From positions 1 through 20,556 of the IMG/VR virus record IMGVR_UViG_3300025668_000048: 20,556 nucleotides of DNA. One strand, given 5' to 3'. A program made the position numbers and the translations under genes. The notes under the pieces were generated by a model, which searched no databases, had not been told where the DNA came from, and saw nothing but the letters and a program-made list of their open reading frames with translations. The stretch comes from a virus. Each line of letters opens with the position of its first letter. Within the stretch, counting starts at the first letter, position 1. Shown one piece after another: positions 1,747 to 20,417 of this stretch.

Positions 1747-1754
1747 TATTTATC
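1747..1754 (-). promoter_or_regulatory. T4-type late promoter element (GATAAATA)
   Basis: The minus strand reads GATAAATA, one base off the T4 late consensus TATAAATA. It lies 28 bases before the ATG of the 65-residue coiled-coil gene and overlaps the stop codon of the preceding oxygenase gene. The same motif at a similar distance precedes two other genes here, which supports a real signal. Confidence 0.5.
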
Positions 1755-2256
1755 TGAAGTAATTAAAGTTAATTACAAATCTTCCTGTTGAATCTGTTGT
1801 AGTTGTTCCAGTGTGTTTTATATTACTGTCAAAAATAACAATCCTATTCTCTACACTTTCTACAATTTCTCCAGTTTCAAATTTTGTATAACCATCGCAT
1901 GTATTGAGATAATAAACTGCAGTAGTGCAGTCTGGTAAATCTACATGATATCCATGTTCAATAATTTTACTAATGCATGGATTTAAATTTGCCTTTACTC
2001 TAGCTAAAGATTTTACTTTTAATTTTTCTCTAAAACATTCTAGATCTTTAAAATATTCTGTTATTGGAATATCAAAATTATAAAACAAATGAGTAAATTG
2101 ATTTTGTAATTCTTTATGTTTTAGATCTAATGGTATACCAGTATTAATATCCTGTAAAGTTGGTCCATATGTCCATGGAAAATACGAACTAATAATCGTA
2201 TTTTTTAAGTATTGAAATTGGTGTTCAAAAAGAAAATTATCAATAATTTCTATCAA
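1750..2256 (-). CDS. 2OG-Fe(II) oxygenase, prolyl-hydroxylase-like
   Basis: A 168-residue protein with the double-stranded beta-helix iron site of 2-oxoglutarate/Fe(II) dioxygenases. The likely facial triad is His104 and Asp106 (YHVD), then His148 (NIKH), with Arg159 (TGRF) placed to bind 2-oxoglutarate. Such enzymes couple oxidative decarboxylation of 2-oxoglutarate to hydroxylation of a protein, nucleic acid or small molecule; the substrate cannot be read here. The start is TTG at 2256, overlapping the TGA stop of the upstream oxygenase gene (TTGA). It is supported by a strong GGAGGGAG ribosome-binding site 9-10 bases upstream, and an ATG start would lose the conserved N-terminus MIEIIDNFL. 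It ends three oxygenase genes in tandem and lies close to structural genes. Confidence 0.82.
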   Translation of the reverse strand: MIEIIDNFLFEHQFQYLKNTIISSYFPWTYGPTLQDINTGIPLDLKHKELQNQFTHLFYNFDIPITEYFKDLECFREKLKVKSLARVKANLNPCISKIIEHGYHVDLPDCTTAVYYLNTCDGYTKFETGEIVESVENRIVIFDSNIKHTGTTTTDSTGRFVINFNYFR

Positions 2257-2858
2257 TTAAATCTCCCTCCTTTTATCCATCCAACAAGAGAATACCTAGT
2301 TCCTGATGTTACTTCTGTAACTCTATGAGGAACTCTACTATCAAAAATAGTTAGAAGACCTTGTTTCTTTTCAATAACTTGAATCTCATTAGTATTCATT
2401 GGATTCTGAAATTCCAAAACACCACCTTCATATTCACTAGGATCTGAAAGTTGAAATGTATAAGAAAGTTTTCTTACAAACTCTCCTGAGTTGTTTTGCA
2501 TTAACTCAAATGGATTCCTGTCTTCATCCATATGCCATTCGTAAAAATCACCAGCACTATACTTGGTAAACTGTACAGTTTCGTTATCATATCCAACTAG
2601 TTCATAACCAAAATATCTTCGGTTAATATTTGCGACATATGATAACAATACAGATGGTAACCAGTTAGTTTCATGTAACCATTTTACCATTGATGATCTT
2701 GCATCACGGTCAGTATCATTTACTTTTGCATGTGCGTATTCGATAATTTTATCAGTATCGTCTAAAGATTCCCAATCACGAATCGAATCACAAATTAATG
2801 GTGGTAATTCAGTTGATACTGAAAAAATATTTGGATTTACTATTAGTTTAATATCCAT
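2253..2858 (-). CDS. 2OG-Fe(II) oxygenase, PKHD-type
   Basis: A 201-residue protein with a full dioxygenase motif set: His109 and Asp111 (YEWHMDED), then GGVLEF at 145-150, His178 in FDSRVPHRV and Arg188 (SGTRYSLVGW). The HxD...H...R layout and the 'GGxLxF ... FDSxxPHxVxxVxxGxRxSLxxW' pattern match the PKHD/P4H-type hydroxylases that are common in cyanophages. All residues needed for iron and 2-oxoglutarate binding seem present, so the enzyme is probably active. The substrate is unknown. The ATG at 2858 is two bases after the upstream oxygenase stop and shows no clear ribosome-binding site, so translation is probably coupled. The 3' end overlaps the next oxygenase by four bases. It is not closely similar to either neighbour, so the cluster is not a simple tandem duplication. 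Confidence 0.88.
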   Translation of the reverse strand: MDIKLIVNPNIFSVSTELPPLICDSIRDWESLDDTDKIIEYAHAKVNDTDRDARSSMVKWLHETNWLPSVLLSYVANINRRYFGYELVGYDNETVQFTKYSAGDFYEWHMDEDRNPFELMQNNSGEFVRKLSYTFQLSDPSEYEGGVLEFQNPMNTNEIQVIEKKQGLLTIFDSRVPHRVTEVTSGTRYSLVGWIKGGRFN

Positions 2859-2860
2859 AA

Positions 2861-3457
2861 TTAATTAACAAAATTGAGGTTAAATGAAAGAGTTACTCTG
2901 AGTTTATCAGATTTTTGTCTAGGAACTTTATGTTCCAAGAAAGATGGAAAAATTAGTAAGTCACCTTCTTCTGCTTTTACAAATGATTGACCTACCCAAG
3001 TTCCGGGTGTTTCGTCTATTCCACCAATAAAATCAGGTGAATTTGATAGTGCTACTTGTCTAAAGGGATTAATAAAAATAGTTGGAGAGTGTTCTTCTTT
3101 GTCATATGAGACATAATGAATACAAGAAAAATGACCAGGAAGATGTTCATGTATTTCCTGATGTTGATTTGTCTTATATGCATTCAACCAAGCTTCTCTA
3201 ACCATAGGATTGCCAGCAATTCCCATTTGCATAGAAAAATTTCTTAGTTCATCAATGTAAAGAGGAACTACAGTTTTCCAATCAAAATTATTTTCTTGAT
3301 CGAAAGTTGTCCACACGTCAGCATCCCACGCATCAACAAAAGTTGATGGGTTTTTTTCATAATCTGGGATAACATAATCTAAACATGTTTTCTTAATTCT
3401 TTCATGATTTTTTACTTTTACTAAAAATAATGTAGAAGGAAACAATTCAATAATCAT
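2861..3457 (-). CDS. Putative 2OG-Fe(II) oxygenase, HxH variant
   Basis: A 198-residue protein resembling the phage and marine-bacterial putative 2OG-Fe(II) oxygenase group (Pfam 2OG-FeII_Oxy_5 type, from memory). Visible marks are WLNAYKTNQHQEIHEHLPGH at 90-109, then GDLLIFPSFLEHKVP at 165-179, and Arg187 in KLRVTLSFNL. The distal His176 and the Arg fit the fold. The first iron-binding pair reads H103-E104-H105 where classical enzymes have HxD. This may be the normal form of this subgroup, a changed iron site, or reduced activity. A small gene ends 9 bases upstream of the ATG, and no good ribosome-binding site is seen. It is the first of three oxygenase genes probably translated as one group. 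Confidence 0.8.
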   Translation of the reverse strand: MIIELFPSTLFLVKVKNHERIKKTCLDYVIPDYEKNPSTFVDAWDADVWTTFDQENNFDWKTVVPLYIDELRNFSMQMGIAGNPMVREAWLNAYKTNQHQEIHEHLPGHFSCIHYVSYDKEEHSPTIFINPFRQVALSNSPDFIGGIDETPGTWVGQSFVKAEEGDLLIFPSFLEHKVPRQKSDKLRVTLSFNLNFVN

Positions 3458-4878: not shown

Positions 4879-5727
4879 TCAAATGCCATATTTTGCCTTA
4901 GCATAGTTATAATTTTGCTGAATCATAGTAGGCGTTAATGCAAGACCATAAACTCTGAAGTAAGCATATCCACCTGGATTTGGATAACTGGTTGATGTAG
5001 TCGTATCACAACCTCTAGAAGCAAGTTTTGGCCAACATGATGTTTGGTTATTTAATTTTCCTCCAGATGGATAAGTATAACTATCAGTTTGCTGTCCATT
5101 CTTATAAAATTTTACATAATTTCCATCATAGGTTAGGACTAAGTGATACCATTCACCTACATTAATAGTACAAACTGCATCATCCCAGAACCAAGATTGG
5201 TTATCTGCCCAAAGTGCCCACCAAAGATCTGATGTTGTGGCAGTATTATTTCTTCTAGATAGTTCCCAACAGTTTTCTTTATTCCATATAATTGCATAAT
5301 CAACTGGTTGACCAGATGCTTTATAAACAATATCAATAGAAACAAAATCTGACGCTACATTATTGCCATCAATAACAAATGCTTCGTTAGTTGCAAACTC
5401 TTGATAAGAAAATGTGGATACACTGTTAGTTGTTGACTGGAGAGATCCTCCTCCATTTAAACCGCTAGTTCCATAACCATTGATAGTTTCTGTGCCATTT
5501 TGATTTAGATTCCAATCAACATTGGCAATCAATCCAAGAGTAGAGAAAGTAGATTGTTCTTTTAGACCTTTCCACTTCAACCCAGTATTTACACGCAATT
5601 CTCTATCGGTAGTATTATAATAAAGATAACCAGATCCATTATAATCTGGATCTTCTGGTAATGAAGGACAACCAGCAACATTACTGGGATCTACTTTACC
5701 AATAGAAAGTTCTGATGAAGATGCCAT
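4879..5727 (-). CDS. LamG/concanavalin-like lectin-domain tail protein
   Basis: A 282-residue protein. Residues 1-55 contain YLYYNTTDRELRVNTGLKWK (35-54), the same type of short N-terminal module as the next gene. From about 63 to 280 the pattern is that of a laminin-G/concanavalin-A-like jelly roll: DFVSIDIVYKASG (127-139), GEWYHLVLTYDGNYVKFYKN (191-210) and a final FRVYGLALTPTMIQQNYNYA, which is the usual last strand plus short helix of LamG_3-type domains. Such domains bind sugars or act as adhesion modules in phage tails. Cysteines occur at 20, 153, 186, 231 and 240. The gene starts just after the giant fibre gene, has a CATAAATA element inside the end of that gene, and precedes a second lectin-like gene. 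The ribosome-binding site is weak. It is likely a virion receptor-binding component. Confidence 0.75.
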   Translation of the reverse strand: MASSSELSIGKVDPSNVAGCPSLPEDPDYNGSGYLYYNTTDRELRVNTGLKWKGLKEQSTFSTLGLIANVDWNLNQNGTETINGYGTSGLNGGGSLQSTTNSVSTFSYQEFATNEAFVIDGNNVASDFVSIDIVYKASGQPVDYAIIWNKENCWELSRRNNTATTSDLWWALWADNQSWFWDDAVCTINVGEWYHLVLTYDGNYVKFYKNGQQTDSYTYPSGGKLNNQTSCWPKLASRGCDTTTSTSYPNPGGYAYFRVYGLALTPTMIQQNYNYAKAKYGI

Positions 5728-15590: not shown

Positions 15591-18500
15591 TTACTTAATT
15601 TCCTGAACTAGTACGGTGAAGTTGATAATATCGGCAACAGTATGGTCATCACTTAAAGTTAAAGTAATTCTAGGTTCTAATAAAGAAGTAAAATCAAATA
15701 CTGCATTGTACTGATCATTTGAAGTATTTAAAGAAGAATACTCATTATGAAAAATGTCAGTACCATCATCTATAACAGCATATTTTGTCATAGACCTTTT
15801 TCCAGAATCAGATTTGGAAATAACAGTTACCTCACATCCTTTAGATGTGCCACTTGGATAAAGAACTACAGAAGAAGATTCCAACCCACCTTTATCTAAC
15901 ACAAATGTAGAAGAACTAATTTTGTAATCTGCTAATTCAAATTCTTTCAGTTCTCCATCAAGAACCTTGACACCATTAAATGTTCCAGTTCCAAAAGTTG
16001 TATTAAGATAAACATCACCTTGATCATCTAATCTTAAAATAGGATCTGTGTTTAATCCAGAAGATAATCCTAAATCAAGATATTGTTTGGTGCCACTAAT
16101 AAATGTTGTGGTAGAATCACTATTATCAATTGTTGTGTCTACAGAATTAAAAGTAACAATTTCTGTATTCAATGCTAATGAATTTCCTCCACTAGTTGTT
16201 ATGTTGTCAATTCCAGTAAAATCTAAAGAGGTAGTTGATAATTGTAATGTATTAACATTATTATTATAAAAATATAAAATATTTTCATTTGCTGCAGGAG
16301 CAGTTTCTGGAATAATATATGTATTACCATCAACGTCTCTAACACCACCAAGAGAAGACCAGTTAGCACCACTATATCCTTCAAATTGTTGGATTGTTGT
16401 ATTGAAACGAATAGAACCGGGCCCAGCAGCTGCAATTGATTTTTCATTATCAGTGCCAGCAGGAATTCTAAAATGTGTTACAGAATCAACAATTGTTTGC
16501 TTTCCTGCATTTGGTTGAATAATTAAATCTTTGACGGATGTTGAAATTATATTATCGTCAAGTTTTAATTCTGATCCAATAACTAAAGGGCAGTCTTTAT
16601 TTGGACCAACTCTTAGTTCGGAAATTTCTTCAAAGGTTAATGAATCAACAGCGATAGAAGACCAAGTTAATTGTGCAGTACCATTATTTTGAACTCCAGT
16701 AGTATGTATTGGTTCACCACCAGAAGAAGTAGTTGTTCCATCACCGGTTACTTCATATAAATTATTTTTGTATTTTAAATAAGATCCACTAATTACTGCT
16801 GTGTTAGATGCCCATTCTGTAAATGATGGAAGACCCAATTTACCAGAAGAAATTTTCTTAACATTTCTAAAATCTAGAAACTGTGGTGTTAATTTTAGTG
16901 TATTTACAGCATCATTGTAAAACCATAATGTATTATCGTTTGCTCCTGCCGTAAGTTCTGCTAGAATGTATGTATTACCATCAATATCTCTAACTCCACC
17001 AAGAGAAGACCACGAATTTGAAGTGGAATTGTATCCTTCGTATTGATTATTATCAGTATTAAATCTGATAGCACCATTTTGTCTGGTTGCTGCTCCTGGA
17101 CGCTCTGAAGTATTACCGACAGGTAATACTAGTGCTTGTGTTCCATTTACTTTAGCAATTCTACCTGCCACAGGATTTAAAACTAAATCATTACCGGTGG
17201 TAGTTTGAATTTCGTTTTCTTCAATTAAAAGTTTATCATTTATATTTAAAAACCCAGTTGTTTTTAAATAACCAGATGTAGTAATATTTCCACTGGTGCT
17301 AGCAATGTTAACACTACTACCTACATTTAATGGAGCATTAACATTTACAGAAGTTCCTGAAAAACTTAGTGTTGTTTGTGAAGAAATAGATGAAGCAACA
17401 ACATTAGTTCCATTTAACTGTGGAACAGTTATGGAACCAGTAAGAATTGCATCAACACCGGTAATAGTAGAAGAGGACGTAATACTTGTAGACGTAAACT
17501 CACCAGTACTGATATCTGCTGAAACAACATCAGATTGTTGTGTATCTAAAACGGATAACGAAAACCCAGAACCAAATACTTTTGGATTATTGGCATCAAT
17601 TGTTAATAGAGATTCATTTCCAGATTCACCACCTTGATCGGCAGTTAATCTATCATAATAGTATAGATTGGGAATAGTATCTGTTATTTTAATATTAACA
17701 TTTGAACCATCTGTTGATACACTATCAGTAAATTCGGTTCCTTCAAATAGTAAATCTGCGTCTCCTGAAATAGATGGTGCTGTATCTAATGTAATAGTAG
17801 TAGCGTCTACAACAGTATCTACTTTTGTCCCACTAACTAATGCTCCACCATCCTGACCAGTAGAAGTTACAAGCATACCAGATACAATTCCGGCCGTGCT
17901 AGTAACGGTAATAGTAGCAGACCCTACATCTAATGTAGATGTAAGTGTTCCAACCCTACTAACTCCCCACTTTCCTCCAGGAAAACTAGAGAAAGCAAAT
18001 TCTTGAGCATCGTTAGAAGAATCTGATAAATCAAATGAATATGTATTTCCAACATATAAAGTTAAGTCTGGAGTCATGGTAGACCCAGAACCTGTATCAA
18101 TGAATATTTTTGTTTCTAAATCAGTAAACGTATTGATAGTATAAGTTGGACCGGGAGCAGAATCTTTTTCAAATACAGATCCAGCAGCAAGACCAGTAGA
18201 ACTACAAATTAATGAACTTATATTTCCACCAAGAGATCTAATCTCAACAATTTCTGTGCTTGATCCTTGCGCTACTCCACTTTCAACTAGAATATCTCCT
18301 ACAGCAAACGTGCTTGTAGATACAGTTGCTGTTAGTGTAATTTCTACAACTTGTTTTCTAGTTACAGTATATGTAATAGGTTGAGTTAAATCAGATGGAT
18401 TTACTTCTAAAAGATCTCCTTCTATATAACCGTTTCCAACGTTGTTAATTGCAATACTTTCTACAGAACCAATTTTAGCAATGGTATATTGTAGTGCAGT

Positions 18501-20417
18501 TGATGGCGAACCATATGAAGGACTGAATGATAAAGTTGCAGATCCTGCAGTTGTTGGTGTATTTGATAATGTAATTACATTTCCAACAATTAAAGATACT
18601 GTAGTATCAGCAGCAACAGATCCGGGACCAGTAGTTACAGTAACAGTATCCCCAACATTAATACCCACAACACTAGATACAGTGATATCTGTTAAATTTG
18701 GTGAGGAGAATGATAAACTTGCAGATCCTGCAGTTCCTGGAATAGCAGATAATGTCAATTCAGTCGCACTATCGATAGTTGCAACTGTTGTGCTTGGTTG
18801 AAGAATTCCTGTATCTGATTGTCCATTAAAGACATTCATTCCTGCAGCAATACCTGCTGTGCTAGAAACAGTAATTTGTGCTGATGAATTGCTTAATGTT
18901 GTAGAAACATTATTTTTTTGTCCTGGAAGAGATGCAGCAACTCCTGTAACTCCAGCTGATAATGATAAAACATCATTTATGGCATAACCAGATCCCTTAC
19001 TATCAAATGTAAGAATTTCTGACAATTGACCAGGATTGGTGTTTACTGTATAAGTAAACCCAGATCCACCACCTCCACCTAAGTCAGAATCATTTGCTGA
19101 TAAAATATCTGTTGAGATATATCCAGAACCAATGTTTGTGAAAGTTATAGAACCAACAACTCCATTAAAAGAAGTTGTTGTTAACGTAAACGTAGATCCA
19201 GATCCAGTTCCTCCTATATCAGTAGGATTGAATGTTACAATGTCTCCAGTTGCATAATCATCTGCATCTGTAAATACGACCGACGAAACTGCTCCACCAG
19301 ATACAGTTACCTCTGCTGTTCCTCCTGTGCCTTCGTGAACTGTTGTTCCAGACTGAATGGTGACACTTGCACCCATATTATTATGAACTTCACAGTCATA
19401 ATTTACAGTTGCGGTTGTAGATGATCCCTTAACTACAACGTAGTAAAAAGCACCTGCACTGCCAGGAGTTCCTACTCTGACTCCAGTAACACCAGGAGAA
19501 TCACCTGGATTTAAATCTCCCCCAAACTGAGTTTCAAACCTAAATGGATGTCCGACGTTAGATGCATCAGATATATCAAATCTATAAGTATTTCCAGTAT
19601 CTAAAGTTAGTGCTGGTTGGGTATTGCCATCAATTACATATTGGAAAGGACCGGAACCAGTTACGGTTGCAACAAATGTTTGTATTGGTTCGTTGTATGT
19701 AGATACACCTTGATATGTTCCGTCTGTATATCCAGAACCACCACTTATTGTTCCATTAAATCCTGTACTACCAGTTACTATAATATCAGCAACAGCATTA
19801 GATCCATTTCCTCCAGTAATAGGAACATCATTATATGTTCCTGGCACATATCCAGAACCACCTACCAAAGCACCAACAATACCAGGAACGTTAAATGAAA
19901 TTAAAGCTCCAGATCCATTTCCTCCTGGTAAAGGAACTGAACTGTAAGTTCCCGGATTATAACCAGCACCAGTTTGTGTAATTGAACCTTCATATTCTGT
20001 AATTACAAAATCTAGAGACGCATTATCACCCGTTCCACTAATAAGAGCAACATTAGTATAAGACCCTGGATCATAGTTTAATCCAGTATTTAAAATAGAA
20101 ATACCACTATCATATAAAATTCTCTGTCTTACTTTAAAATTTTTAAAGAAGACAACACCCGATGGTTCTAAATCAATAATTTTTTTGTTTGAAGAAACAA
20201 ATCCCAAACTACCAGTATCTGATTTGTATATACCGACACTGGTATCTGATGTAAAAGATAAAGAAGGAACTAAAATAGTTCCATTCCCAAGTTTCAAATT
20301 TCCTGTAGAAAGATCACTTCCGCCCTGAGCGATATTAAAAATTTGAGTTCCAATCTCATTAATTTTTAACCTTTGTTTTTCAAAGGTATCAGTTCTAGCG
20401 ACATTAATTGCTGGCAT
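15591..20417 (-). CDS. Large modular virion structural protein with cupredoxin-like domains (1608 aa)
   Basis: Modules by residue: 1-100 an N-terminal region (MPAINVARTDTFEKQRLKIN) of the kind seen in large cyanophage structural proteins; 112-242 four GxGY-PGTY beta repeats; 247-355 a cupredoxin-like domain with possible copper ligands His290, Cys342, His345 and Met348; 385-500 and 650-690 further GSGY-type repeats; 504-632 two copies of a TDITVSS-type repeat; 766-940 a degenerate second cupredoxin-like domain with a third such repeat inserted; 985-1110 fibre-like beta sequence; 1115-1183 and 1334-1400 a duplicated fibre module containing SSLGGVRDxDGNTY; 1480-1608 a C-terminal domain. It is probably a tail fibre or baseplate-periphery protein. 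The ATG overlaps the 3' end of the upstream gene by 14 bases, and a CATAAATA element lies 55 bases upstream. No enzyme active site is recognised. Confidence 0.85.
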   Translation of the reverse strand: MPAINVARTDTFEKQRLKINEIGTQIFNIAQGGSDLSTGNLKLGNGTILVPSLSFTSDTSVGIYKSDTGSLGFVSSNKKIIDLEPSGVVFFKNFKVRQRILYDSGISILNTGLNYDPGSYTNVALISGTGDNASLDFVITEYEGSITQTGAGYNPGTYSSVPLPGGNGSGALISFNVPGIVGALVGGSGYVPGTYNDVPITGGNGSNAVADIIVTGSTGFNGTISGGSGYTDGTYQGVSTYNEPIQTFVATVTGSGPFQYVIDGNTQPALTLDTGNTYRFDISDASNVGHPFRFETQFGGDLNPGDSPGVTGVRVGTPGSAGAFYYVVVKGSSTTATVNYDCEVHNNMGASVTIQSGTTVHEGTGGTAEVTVSGGAVSSVVFTDADDYATGDIVTFNPTDIGGTGSGSTFTLTTTSFNGVVGSITFTNIGSGYISTDILSANDSDLGGGGGSGFTYTVNTNPGQLSEILTFDSKGSGYAINDVLSLSAGVTGVAASLPGQKNNVSTTLSNSSAQITVSSTAGIAAGMNVFNGQSDTGILQPSTTVATIDSATELTLSAIPGTAGSASLSFSSPNLTDITVSSVVGINVGDTVTVTTGPGSVAADTTVSLIVGNVITLSNTPTTAGSATLSFSPSYGSPSTALQYTIAKIGSVESIAINNVGNGYIEGDLLEVNPSDLTQPITYTVTRKQVVEITLTATVSTSTFAVGDILVESGVAQGSSTEIVEIRSLGGNISSLICSSTGLAAGSVFEKDSAPGPTYTINTFTDLETKIFIDTGSGSTMTPDLTLYVGNTYSFDLSDSSNDAQEFAFSSFPGGKWGVSRVGTLTSTLDVGSATITVTSTAGIVSGMLVTSTGQDGGALVSGTKVDTVVDATTITLDTAPSISGDADLLFEGTEFTDSVSTDGSNVNIKITDTIPNLYYYDRLTADQGGESGNESLLTIDANNPKVFGSGFSLSVLDTQQSDVVSADISTGEFTSTSITSSSTITGVDAILTGSITVPQLNGTNVVASSISSQTTLSFSGTSVNVNAPLNVGSSVNIASTSGNITTSGYLKTTGFLNINDKLLIEENEIQTTTGNDLVLNPVAGRIAKVNGTQALVLPVGNTSERPGAATRQNGAIRFNTDNNQYEGYNSTSNSWSSLGGVRDIDGNTYILAELTAGANDNTLWFYNDAVNTLKLTPQFLDFRNVKKISSGKLGLPSFTEWASNTAVISGSYLKYKNNLYEVTGDGTTTSSGGEPIHTTGVQNNGTAQLTWSSIAVDSLTFEEISELRVGPNKDCPLVIGSELKLDDNIISTSVKDLIIQPNAGKQTIVDSVTHFRIPAGTDNEKSIAAAGPGSIRFNTTIQQFEGYSGANWSSLGGVRDVDGNTYIIPETAPAANENILYFYNNNVNTLQLSTTSLDFTGIDNITTSGGNSLALNTEIVTFNSVDTTIDNSDSTTTFISGTKQYLDLGLSSGLNTDPILRLDDQGDVYLNTTFGTGTFNGVKVLDGELKEFELADYKISSSTFVLDKGGLESSSVVLYPSGTSKGCEVTVISKSDSGKRSMTKYAVIDDGTDIFHNEYSSLNTSNDQYNAVFDFTSLLEPRITLTLSDDHTVADIINFTVLVQEIK
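16218..17075 (-). repeat. Duplicated SSLGGVRD fibre module in the 1608-aa protein
   Basis: Residues 1115-1183 (16869-17075) and 1334-1400 (16218-16418) share IRFNT..NQYEGYN..WSSLGGVRDxDGNTYI...AN.N.LxFYN..VNTLxL...LDF. The DNA coding the GGVRD segment is also very similar. The units are about 219 residues apart. Similar YNTT...YNG..W segments open the two lectin-like proteins at 3738-4838 and 4879-5727. Confidence 0.8.
17598..18122 (-). other. Degenerate cupredoxin-like domain interrupted by a repeat module
   Basis: Residues 766-940 of the same protein. PDLTLYVGNTYSFDLSDSSN aligns closely with PALTLDTGNTYRFDISDASN of the first domain, but GHPF has become AQEF, losing the His. The closing strand reads NLYYYDRLTADQGGESG without Cys, His or Met. 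Residues 825-893 (17739-17945) between the halves form a TATITVTSTAGI-type repeat like those at 504-632, so it appears to have been inserted. Confidence 0.6.
18522..18908 (-). repeat. Tandem TDITVSS-type repeats with near-identical DNA segment
   Basis: Residues 504-571 and 575-632 are related units containing SAQITVSSTAGIAAGM and LTDITVSSVVGINVGD and ending TAGSASLSFS and TAGSATLSFS. At DNA level the ends (18525-18552 and 18708-18735) match over 28 bases with one mismatch, 183 bases apart and in frame. A third unit is at 17739-17945. Confidence 0.75.
19353..19679 (-). other. Cupredoxin-like domain with intact-looking type-1 copper motif
   Basis: Residues 247-355 of the 1608-residue protein. 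LTLDTGNTYRFDISDASNVG is followed by His290 in GHPFRF, and VNYDCEVHNNMGASVTI ends the domain with Cys342, His345 and Met348. A His far upstream plus C-x2-H-x2-M on the last loop is the type-1 copper ligand set, and this spacing equals that of amicyanin (Cys92, His95, Met98). I recall related domains in other marine phage and metagenomic proteins, not checked here. Copper binding is inferred from the motif. Confidence 0.65.
19692..20078 (-). repeat. Four GxGY-PGTY repeats near the N-terminus of the 1608-aa protein
   Basis: Residues 114-242 hold four units of about 38 residues: YDPGSYTNVALISGTGDNAS, YNPGTYSSVPLPGGNGSGAL, YVPGTYNDVPITGGNGSNAV and YTDGTYQGVSTYN. Each is led by GAGY or GSGY except the first (GLNY). 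The regular period and Gly-rich turns suggest a small beta-prism or solenoid. Confidence 0.8.

Follow-up and report, generated by a model that had tools for sequence, protein, structure and literature searches.

A complete set of type-1 copper ligands in a cupredoxin-like domain of a tail or baseplate protein from a cyanomyovirus-like contig

The virus record IMGVR_UViG_3300025668_000048 of IMG/VR was analysed over its positions 1 to 20,556 (20,556 nucleotides; hereafter the window, which always means this whole stretch). The record has the gene order of T4-like cyanophages and its source contig is cyanomyovirus-like. Its minus strand encodes P0001, a virion structural protein of tail or baseplate type, in which two domains appear to be cupredoxin-like: domain 1 holds a complete set of type-1 copper ligands (His290, Cys342, His345 and Met348), and domain 2 has lost its set in the window. 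Our favoured reading, to which we give a probability of about 0.6, is that a cyanophage tail or baseplate protein here contains a cupredoxin (domain 1) with all four type-1 copper ligands, and that the metal site of this domain serves the virion, most likely in attachment. The main new result is the second cupredoxin-like domain in P0001 together with the pattern of one complete site per protein across the orthologues.

Results

Ligand set and predicted fold of domain 1

An earlier sequence-only reading, made from the letters of the DNA, had proposed a type-1 copper motif in a phage structural protein at 19353-19679, and the fold, ligand order, spacing and conservation described below support a putative cupredoxin of this type. 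The four residues that it named all stand at the claimed positions in P0001 (GHPF at 289-292 and C-E-V-H-N-N-M at 342-348), and its span agrees to within a few residues with the domain boundaries used here (19347-19682). In a near relative (L248), a run of GGxGYxxGTY repeats is uninterrupted at the place where the window carries domain 1. Because the repeats of the relative run on across the insertion point, residues 246-357 of P0001 were treated as a separate domain. Histidines of P0001 are found at positions 290, 345, 361, 1238, 1315, 1557 and 1592, and Cys342 is the sole cysteine within residues 1-737. A disulphide role for Cys342 was considered and is unlikely, the nearest other cysteine being 396 residues off.

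Structure prediction with AlphaFold2, for which 62 sequences (the window and IMG/VR copies) were used as input, returned a confident beta-sandwich of nine strands for domain 1 (predicted local distance difference test, pLDDT, 92.6; predicted template modelling score, pTM, 0.85). In the model a strand starts directly after His290, the next-to-last strand closes with Cys342, and the loop leading to the last strand contains His345 and Met348, an arrangement also seen in type-1 copper proteins; from this topology we infer that the four ligands would meet in space. Structural comparison of the model revealed that all 50 matches listed are cupredoxin-fold copper proteins, namely two-domain laccases, copper nitrite reductase or rusticyanin (Z 7.8-8.4). 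A Z of about 8 would alone be modest, and the fold call is firm because the matched rows agree and the ligands agree. Foldseek placed nitrite reductase (E 1.5e-3) and then rusticyanin (E 1.7e-3) at the top with a probability of 1.00, and its first nine matches ranged from E 1.5e-3 to 6.7e-3. The assignment of domain 1 to the cupredoxin superfamily, which is characterised by a plastocyanin-like Greek-key beta-sandwich of seven to eight strands, rests on the model, the sequence and the ligands taken together, and the type-1 copper order (His, Cys, His and an axial Met or Gln, with the Cys at a strand end) is present in domain 1. An Ig-like fold was rejected for domain 1, since Ig chains occur only among the weak sequence and Foldseek matches whereas the 50 listed aligned rows are all cupredoxins.

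Among predicted viral proteins (BFVD), 55 match the fold of domain 1 at E<=0.001, and the named ones are mostly cyanophage tail-fibre, virion and connector proteins. Proteins of Marseillevirus and Pithovirus, which mostly bear the name beta-sandwich protein, were also seen among the BFVD fold matches (E 1.2e-4 to 4.5e-4).

Kinship of domain 1 with cupredoxin families

A profile of 35 copies of domain 1 was compared with PDB sequences, and plastocyanins came out on top (E 0.006), the four ligand positions (His, Cys, His, Met) being in register, followed by antibody chains as weak matches; single-sequence PDB searches gave nothing useful. Of the curated models, Pfam Copper-bind (PF00127) matched two of the 35 copies (best 6.8e-4), Cupredoxin_1 (PF13473) one (0.0018) and NCBIfam amicyanin (TIGR02657) one (3.9e-5). 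Alignment by hhalign to a mixed cupredoxin set gave 96.8% with two linking sequences included and 79.5% without them. Domain 1 belongs to the cupredoxin superfamily but, as it stands, to no curated family tested, because the profile links hold while curated-model matches fail for the window's domain.

When eight bacterial genomes holding the module were searched, the phage profile and Pfam Copper-bind coincided at three loci. One of these is a 148-aa frame in a Prochlorococcus genome (G003:C5:112545-112796), with a hydrophobic start and an HPF motif like that of the phage domain, which is apparently a secreted cupredoxin. The ligand loop of this frame (L218) reads CSPHASFGM. A copy in phage P-HM2 (L062:4594-4872), which lies inside a large open reading frame (ORF), has a start (SGTDRNGSV) resembling that of the Prochlorococcus frame.

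Conservation of the ligands

Across the 35 diverse copies, three ligands (His290, Cys342 and Met348) never vary, and 34 copies retain His345, the exception having a longer loop; in 62 viral copies, the window included, all four ligands are invariant. A larger set was obtained by reducing 276 full-length domain matches to 158 non-redundant copies, of which 101 are viral and 57 come from genome contigs. Each ligand is kept in 152 to 157 of these copies (Table 1), and the four ligand columns rank among the six least variable columns of domain 1. The alignment of homologues revealed no free variation at the ligand positions, and a chance origin of the four-residue motif is ruled out by its conservation in 35, 62 and 158 copies. 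The amicyanin-type spacing, Cys-x2-His-x2-Met, which had been pointed out for the window, occurs in 140 of the 158 copies, besides eight with x3, one with x4 and one with a longer Cys-His loop.

The exceptions are few. Of the copies that lack the first His, two are partial matches, each covering one half of a complete domain 2 that is split by its insertion, and none of the four ligands is left in a flavobacterial copy (L171). The remaining five changes of Met are all to Gln (four phage copies and one SAR86 copy), and Met to Gln is the sole recurrent ligand change in whole domains. Gln is the axial ligand of stellacyanin. The loops with Gln for Met, CSVHPxQGG and CQAHANQGG, were seen in domain 1 of one phage clade (L282, L283, L290 and L292) and separately in SAR86 (L160).

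A second cupredoxin-like domain in P0001

Domain 2 lies further along P0001 and is interrupted by a nested beta-barrel insertion (Table 1). The sequence-only reading had remarked that the ligands are lost in a paralogous domain of the window, and this is the case: the His position is occupied by Gln805 and the Cys position by Asp922. For the complete domain 2 of L248, a model with pLDDT 89.7 was obtained, in which the inserted part (74-145) matches the phage tail-tube structure 9n71 (Z 8.4), and the part outside the insertion aligns with the nitrite reductase N-domain (Z 6.2) and rusticyanin (Z 5.5). Foldseek alone did not single out cupredoxins for this split model. Stronger evidence for the putative identity of domain 2 comes from its sequence, which matches domain 1 on both sides of the insertion. 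By eye, stretches resembling the beta-barrel at 17745-17945 (-) seem to recur elsewhere in P0001.

In many orthologues, not including the window, domain 2 has a variant pattern of His and Cys-x(4-6)-His-x2-Glu, with Glu at the Met position and a longer Cys-His loop (seen in L007, L016, L038, L282 and L305). This variant may be another kind of metal site and not merely decay.

One complete site per protein

Both domains were classed in 137 full-length orthologues, of which 80 were left after near-copy removal; 10 of the 80 were re-classed by eye after pattern failure or misreading, and five that the pattern called degenerate were renamed Gln-for-Met. Domain 1 is absent from 26 orthologues, and in 22 of them domain 2 has the full set (His and Cys..His..Met), the first His having been confirmed by eye in all 22. 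The other four comprise one with Cys..His..Glu (S-PM2) and three with no Cys (S-WAM2, L247 and L276). Among the 54 orthologues that carry domain 1, six have the full set in domain 2. Among the 49 with all four ligands in domain 1, domain 2 is complete in six, of the Cys..His..Glu type in 18 and without Cys in 25 (including the window), and in all five with Gln for Met in domain 1 it is of the Cys..His..Glu type. At least one full ligand set is present in 71 of the 80 orthologues, or in 76 if Gln is counted. Synechococcus phages S-RSM4 and S-H9-1 are examples of phages whose protein has a complete site.

Similar proportions were found in two smaller groups. To allow for recruitment bias, the count was repeated on loci recruited solely by their C-terminal region, with patterns that exclude the ligand residues (the best 80 of 114 relatives were kept, and 40 were left after short loci and near copies, including near copies of loci found earlier, were dropped). 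These loci have a complete domain 2 in 15 of 17 cases with domain 1 absent and in 3 of 23 with domain 1 present. For 16 named phages, hand-picked from the match listings of phage records, the corresponding values are 7 of 9 and 0 of 7. The association between domain 1 and the completeness of domain 2 is significant by Fisher test (P-value = 4e-11), a value which ignores kinship and is not to stand alone.

Kinship was taken into account on two trees. On the first, built from the C-terminal region (79 rows, L043 left out for want of an anchor; a long-branch warning was issued), domain 1 changes 11 times and domain 2 completeness changes eight times. The comparison of dependent and independent trait models gave a likelihood ratio (LR) of 29.8-30.1, while 200 simulations under independence had a mean LR of 3.96 and a maximum of 13.4, none of the 200 reaching the observed value. 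On the second tree (mixture model, 15 long or gappy rows left out) the LR was 27.5, and none of 100 nulls reached it. Dependent evolution of the two cupredoxin sites is thus strongly preferred. According to the fitted rates, some of which (including that of domain 1 loss) stand at a preset limit so that only their order counts, loss of domain 1 is almost confined to lineages with a complete domain 2, and decay of domain 2 is some five to ten times faster with domain 1 present. The window's own clade illustrates both states: L248 lacks domain 1 and has a complete domain 2, and its sisters (the window, L003, L005 and L006) show the reverse. The hint in the sequence-only reading that the site is kept for a reason has hereby gained substance, as the contrast between the two domains recurs across orthologues as dependent evolution. 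Given this dependence, one copper-type site per protein seems to be under selection.

These patterns bear on two alternatives. The first is that the metal is a structural pin only, which stiffens a small disulphide-free beta-sandwich and has no binding or redox role. The single Cys in the first 737 residues and the reuse of the module across many fibre contexts agree with such a pin, and metals stiffen other phage fibres; we regard it as a possibility of clearly lower standing than a use of the site by the virion. Domain 2 persists without the full set in 48 of the 54 orthologues that bear domain 1, and because of this a folding need of each single domain is a poor explanation; a pin that serves its own domain also leaves unexplained why the site of domain 2 is retained in proteins without domain 1. 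That the site is kept in either of two places points to a use by the protein as a whole or by the virion, and the simplest picture would be a metal-bearing module displayed on the exterior of a tail or baseplate part.

In the second alternative, domain 1 serves adhesion as an ornament, comparable to phage Ig-like domains, and binds no metal, its conserved residues being kept for packing or history. Its insertion within the repeats of a structural protein, the occurrence of the module in giant bacterial surface-type proteins, the repeated gain and loss of domain 1 (11 changes on the first tree) and the stepwise erosion of domain 2 (Cys and His with Glu for Met, or the first His alone) would all be expected of an ornament. 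However, the ligands are among the least variable positions in whole, unsplit domains, where one copy lost all four and Met is otherwise replaced by Gln only, and the two sites evolve dependently. The pattern of one site per protein argues against a pure adhesion fold without use for the site, and we consider the ornament improbable.

Distribution and protein contexts of the module

Domain 1 recurs as a module in 57 phage records at E<=0.01. It was also located at 42 IMG/VR loci and at 70 loci in GTDB species genomes, both recruited by peptide patterns that include ligand residues and so carry a recruitment bias; many of the GTDB names are marine (SAR86, Pelagibacter, Prochlorococcus and marine Flavobacteriaceae). 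The genome scan used the closer sequence set A2, as profile A1 has no sufficiently conserved stretch. At least 574 relatives were found among 600 viral-contig stretches examined, a set recruited by patterns that exclude the ligand residues. No match was found in 72,556 plasmid records at E up to 1.

PHROG searches of the 35 copies gave tail-fibre matches for 34 and matches to the baseplate wedge tail-fibre connector for 33. In two contigs filed under Pelagibacter (L190 and L164), the module follows a T7 tail-fibre N-terminal domain (PF03906), and both are probably phage genes in bacterial assemblies. A flavobacterial genome carries the module (G004:C2:53518-53814, L226) in a 12,095-aa open frame, putatively a giant surface-type protein, and in a Prochlorococcus record the module-bearing protein has FG-GAP, bacterial Ig and cadherin-like repeats. 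Judged by these sequence contexts, the module is shared between marine phages, where it occurs in proteins of the tail fibre, baseplate and virion, and bacteria, where it occurs in surface-type proteins.

With such abundance in viral contigs (at least 574 relatives in the 600 stretches), a role in copper scavenging or carriage comes into view, in which virions would act as copper ligands in sea water or would bring copper to a copper-uptake receptor of the host. A published parallel exists for iron: the available text of PMC11705849 describes marine phage tail parts with HxH iron sites and a Trojan Horse hypothesis. Like these iron-binding tail fibres, domain 1 has metal ligands in a marine phage tail part, but its set is the soft His-Cys-His-Met in a cupredoxin fold, not HxH (PMC11705849, available text). 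No HxH motif occurs in P0001, where no two His are two positions apart. The iron parallel holds by analogy only, and we know of no host copper receptor that is a phage receptor in picocyanobacteria. Copper carriage appears improbable.

Protein P0001 and its genomic neighbourhood

By full-length homology and gene order, P0001 is a virion structural protein of the phrog_6005 type. It matches phrog_6005 (virion structural protein) with E=0, the best stretch being residues 709-1608, and phrog_32294 (baseplate wedge subunit) with E 2.6e-79. A tblastn search found matches to P0001 in 64 of 50,697 phage records, each best place having less than 60% identity; by name these are Synechococcus (36), cyanophage (12), Prochlorococcus (10), Methylophilales (4) and Pelagibacter (2) phage records. 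In relatives the gene order is a giant gp7 or virulence-associated gene, a small T4-GC 112 ORF, the P0001 orthologue and T4-GC 512, where the upstream part is read from relatives only, as the genes upstream of P0001 fall beyond the end of the window's record. The orthologues in Syn1 and S-PM2 carry the label virion structural protein, and structural proteins of cyanophages were marked from the proteomics of S-SM1, S-PM2 and Syn9 (PMC3037559, available text).

Table 1. Positions of P0001, its two cupredoxin-like domains and related features in the window
Feature	Position	Strand	Remarks
P0001, virion structural protein, tail or baseplate type	15591..20417	(-)	1608-aa ORF
Domain 1, cupredoxin-like, complete type-1 copper ligand set	19347..19682	(-)	P0001 residues 246-357
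His290, first ligand, directly before strand	19548..19550	(-)	kept in 155/158 copies
Cys342, ligand at end of penultimate strand	19392..19394	(-)	kept in 157/158 copies
His345, ligand in loop joining last two strands	19383..19385	(-)	kept in 157/158 copies
Met348, axial ligand position	19374..19376	(-)	kept in 152/158 copies; 5 Gln, 1 Arg
Upstream edge of domain 1 insertion, within GGxGYxxGTY repeats	19704..19739	(-)	alignment to L248 (without domain 1)
Downstream edge of domain 1 insertion	19308..19331	(-)	alignment to L248
Domain 2, cupredoxin-like, ligands lost in the window (Gln805, Asp922)	17595..18110	(-)	P0001 residues 770-941
Beta-barrel insertion nested in domain 2, approximate	17745..17945	(-)	residues about 825-891

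The other minus-strand proteins of the window include P0003 (166 aa); the giant P0002 (3103 aa); P0010, which has no match; P0004 with a LamG-type domain; P0005, which weakly resembles the short tail fibre gp12; P0006, a head-tail adaptor; P0007 and P0008, of 2OG-Fe(II) oxygenase type; and P0009, which matches phrog_274. Adjoining P0002, a 282-aa protein at 4879-5727 (-) has a Laminin_G_3 (concanavalin A-like) domain (E 2.1e-10) and is possibly another adhesion part. Three adjoining genes at 1750-3457 (-) lie between the head-tail adaptor and the fibre-type genes; two are of 2OG-Fe(II) oxygenase type (phrog_81 and phrog_61), and the third matches phrog_274 (label DNA endonuclease V) and, weakly, a 2OG-Fe(II) oxygenase (0.0082).

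This gene content matters for a further alternative, electron transfer or redox sensing, in which copper on the virion would be reduced or oxidised at the host surface and so help to set off attachment or injection or to fix its timing. Electron-transfer cupredoxins have this ligand set, and a Prochlorococcus genome encodes the small, apparently secreted cupredoxin that shares the HPF motif. No protein resembling a redox partner is present among the scanned window proteins, and no route is known by which one isolated centre on a fibre could reach a partner. Of the alternatives considered here we hold this one to be the least probable.

Discussion

For the favoured reading, the fold, ligands, conservation and insertion point of domain 1 and the dependent evolution of the two sites are drawn from sequences and predicted models. 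In this marine T4-like cyanophage, domain 1 is inserted within the repeat run of a tail or baseplate protein. It would be exposed on the virion and would take up copper, another soft metal being less likely; copper is the expected metal from the ligand set. The metal site, beyond the fold alone, would then serve the virion, and its likeliest use would be host attachment through a rigid module that is loaded with metal, has no disulphides and recognises the host surface. Attachment is the leading guess because the context of the module consists of fibres, baseplates and bacterial surface proteins.

Several observations weigh against this reading. The residue following the first His is Pro in domain 1, and Asn follows the first His in plastocyanin, azurin and amicyanin. 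The window's own domain 1 is matched by neither Pfam nor NCBIfam models, even at E up to 1, and among the 35 copies weak matches to Head_fiber_dimeric are found in four (best 0.064) as against two for Copper-bind. In Foldseek searches against PDB, neither domain has a match at E<0.001, and for domain 2 the cupredoxin match is weak both in structural alignment (Z 6.2 and 5.5) and in Foldseek (cupredoxin probability 0.16-0.18). The rule of one site is not strict, as 4 of the 80 orthologues (S-PM2, S-WAM2, L247 and L276) have no complete site and six have two. The stricter independent-pairs tests, which have too few pairs for a decision, were non-significant (seven pairs, median P-value = 0.25; eight pairs, median P-value = 0.125), though the pairs lean the same way as the trait models (on average 2.9 versus 0.2 on the first tree and 4.0 versus 0.3 on the second).

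Compared with amicyanin, plastocyanin and pseudoazurin (PF00127), domain 1 has the same order of His...Cys-x2-His-x(2-4)-Met, a Tyr two positions before the Cys and last two strands that flank the ligand loop. It differs from amicyanin and plastocyanin in its His-Pro in place of His-Asn, and, unlike these free electron carriers, it is embedded in a 1608-aa virion protein. The closest solved folds to the domain 1 model are the N-terminal cupredoxin domain of three-domain copper nitrite reductase (2dv6), rusticyanin and small laccases, which share 10-20% identity with it and are enzymes or soluble carriers with no virion link. Type-1 copper sites are known from electron transfer and from oxidases. 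Small Ig-like beta-sandwiches are inserted in structural proteins of tailed phages and are often gained and lost. Domain 1 resembles them in being an inserted beta-sandwich with frequent gain and loss, but differs by its conserved ligand set; to our knowledge, phage Ig-like domains have no conserved metal ligands.

Cyanophages are already known to encode one cupredoxin, plastocyanin (petE), as a host-derived photosynthesis gene (PMC3037559, available text). Domain 1 is likewise a cupredoxin from this phage group, but petE is a separate small gene and domain 1 is part of a virion structural protein (PMC3037559, available text). A search of the open-licence literature found no report of a virion cupredoxin domain among the matches listed (titles and abstract starts).

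A bolder proposal, which we put forward only tentatively and hold to be rather doubtful, is that T4-like cyanophages need one working type-1 copper centre in the P0001-type protein, in either of its cupredoxin domains. The centre would receive its copper once the virion is in sea water or has met the host surface. Copper binding, or a redox change of the copper, would then form one step in recognising the host, and a copper-dependent virion would extend across the tail fibres of marine phages.

If the favoured reading is true, copper would take part in the particle stability or host recognition of abundant ocean phages, and virions would form a pool of bound copper in sea water. Most relatives retain one complete copper-type site per protein, a hint that virions of marine phages may contain copper and put it to use.

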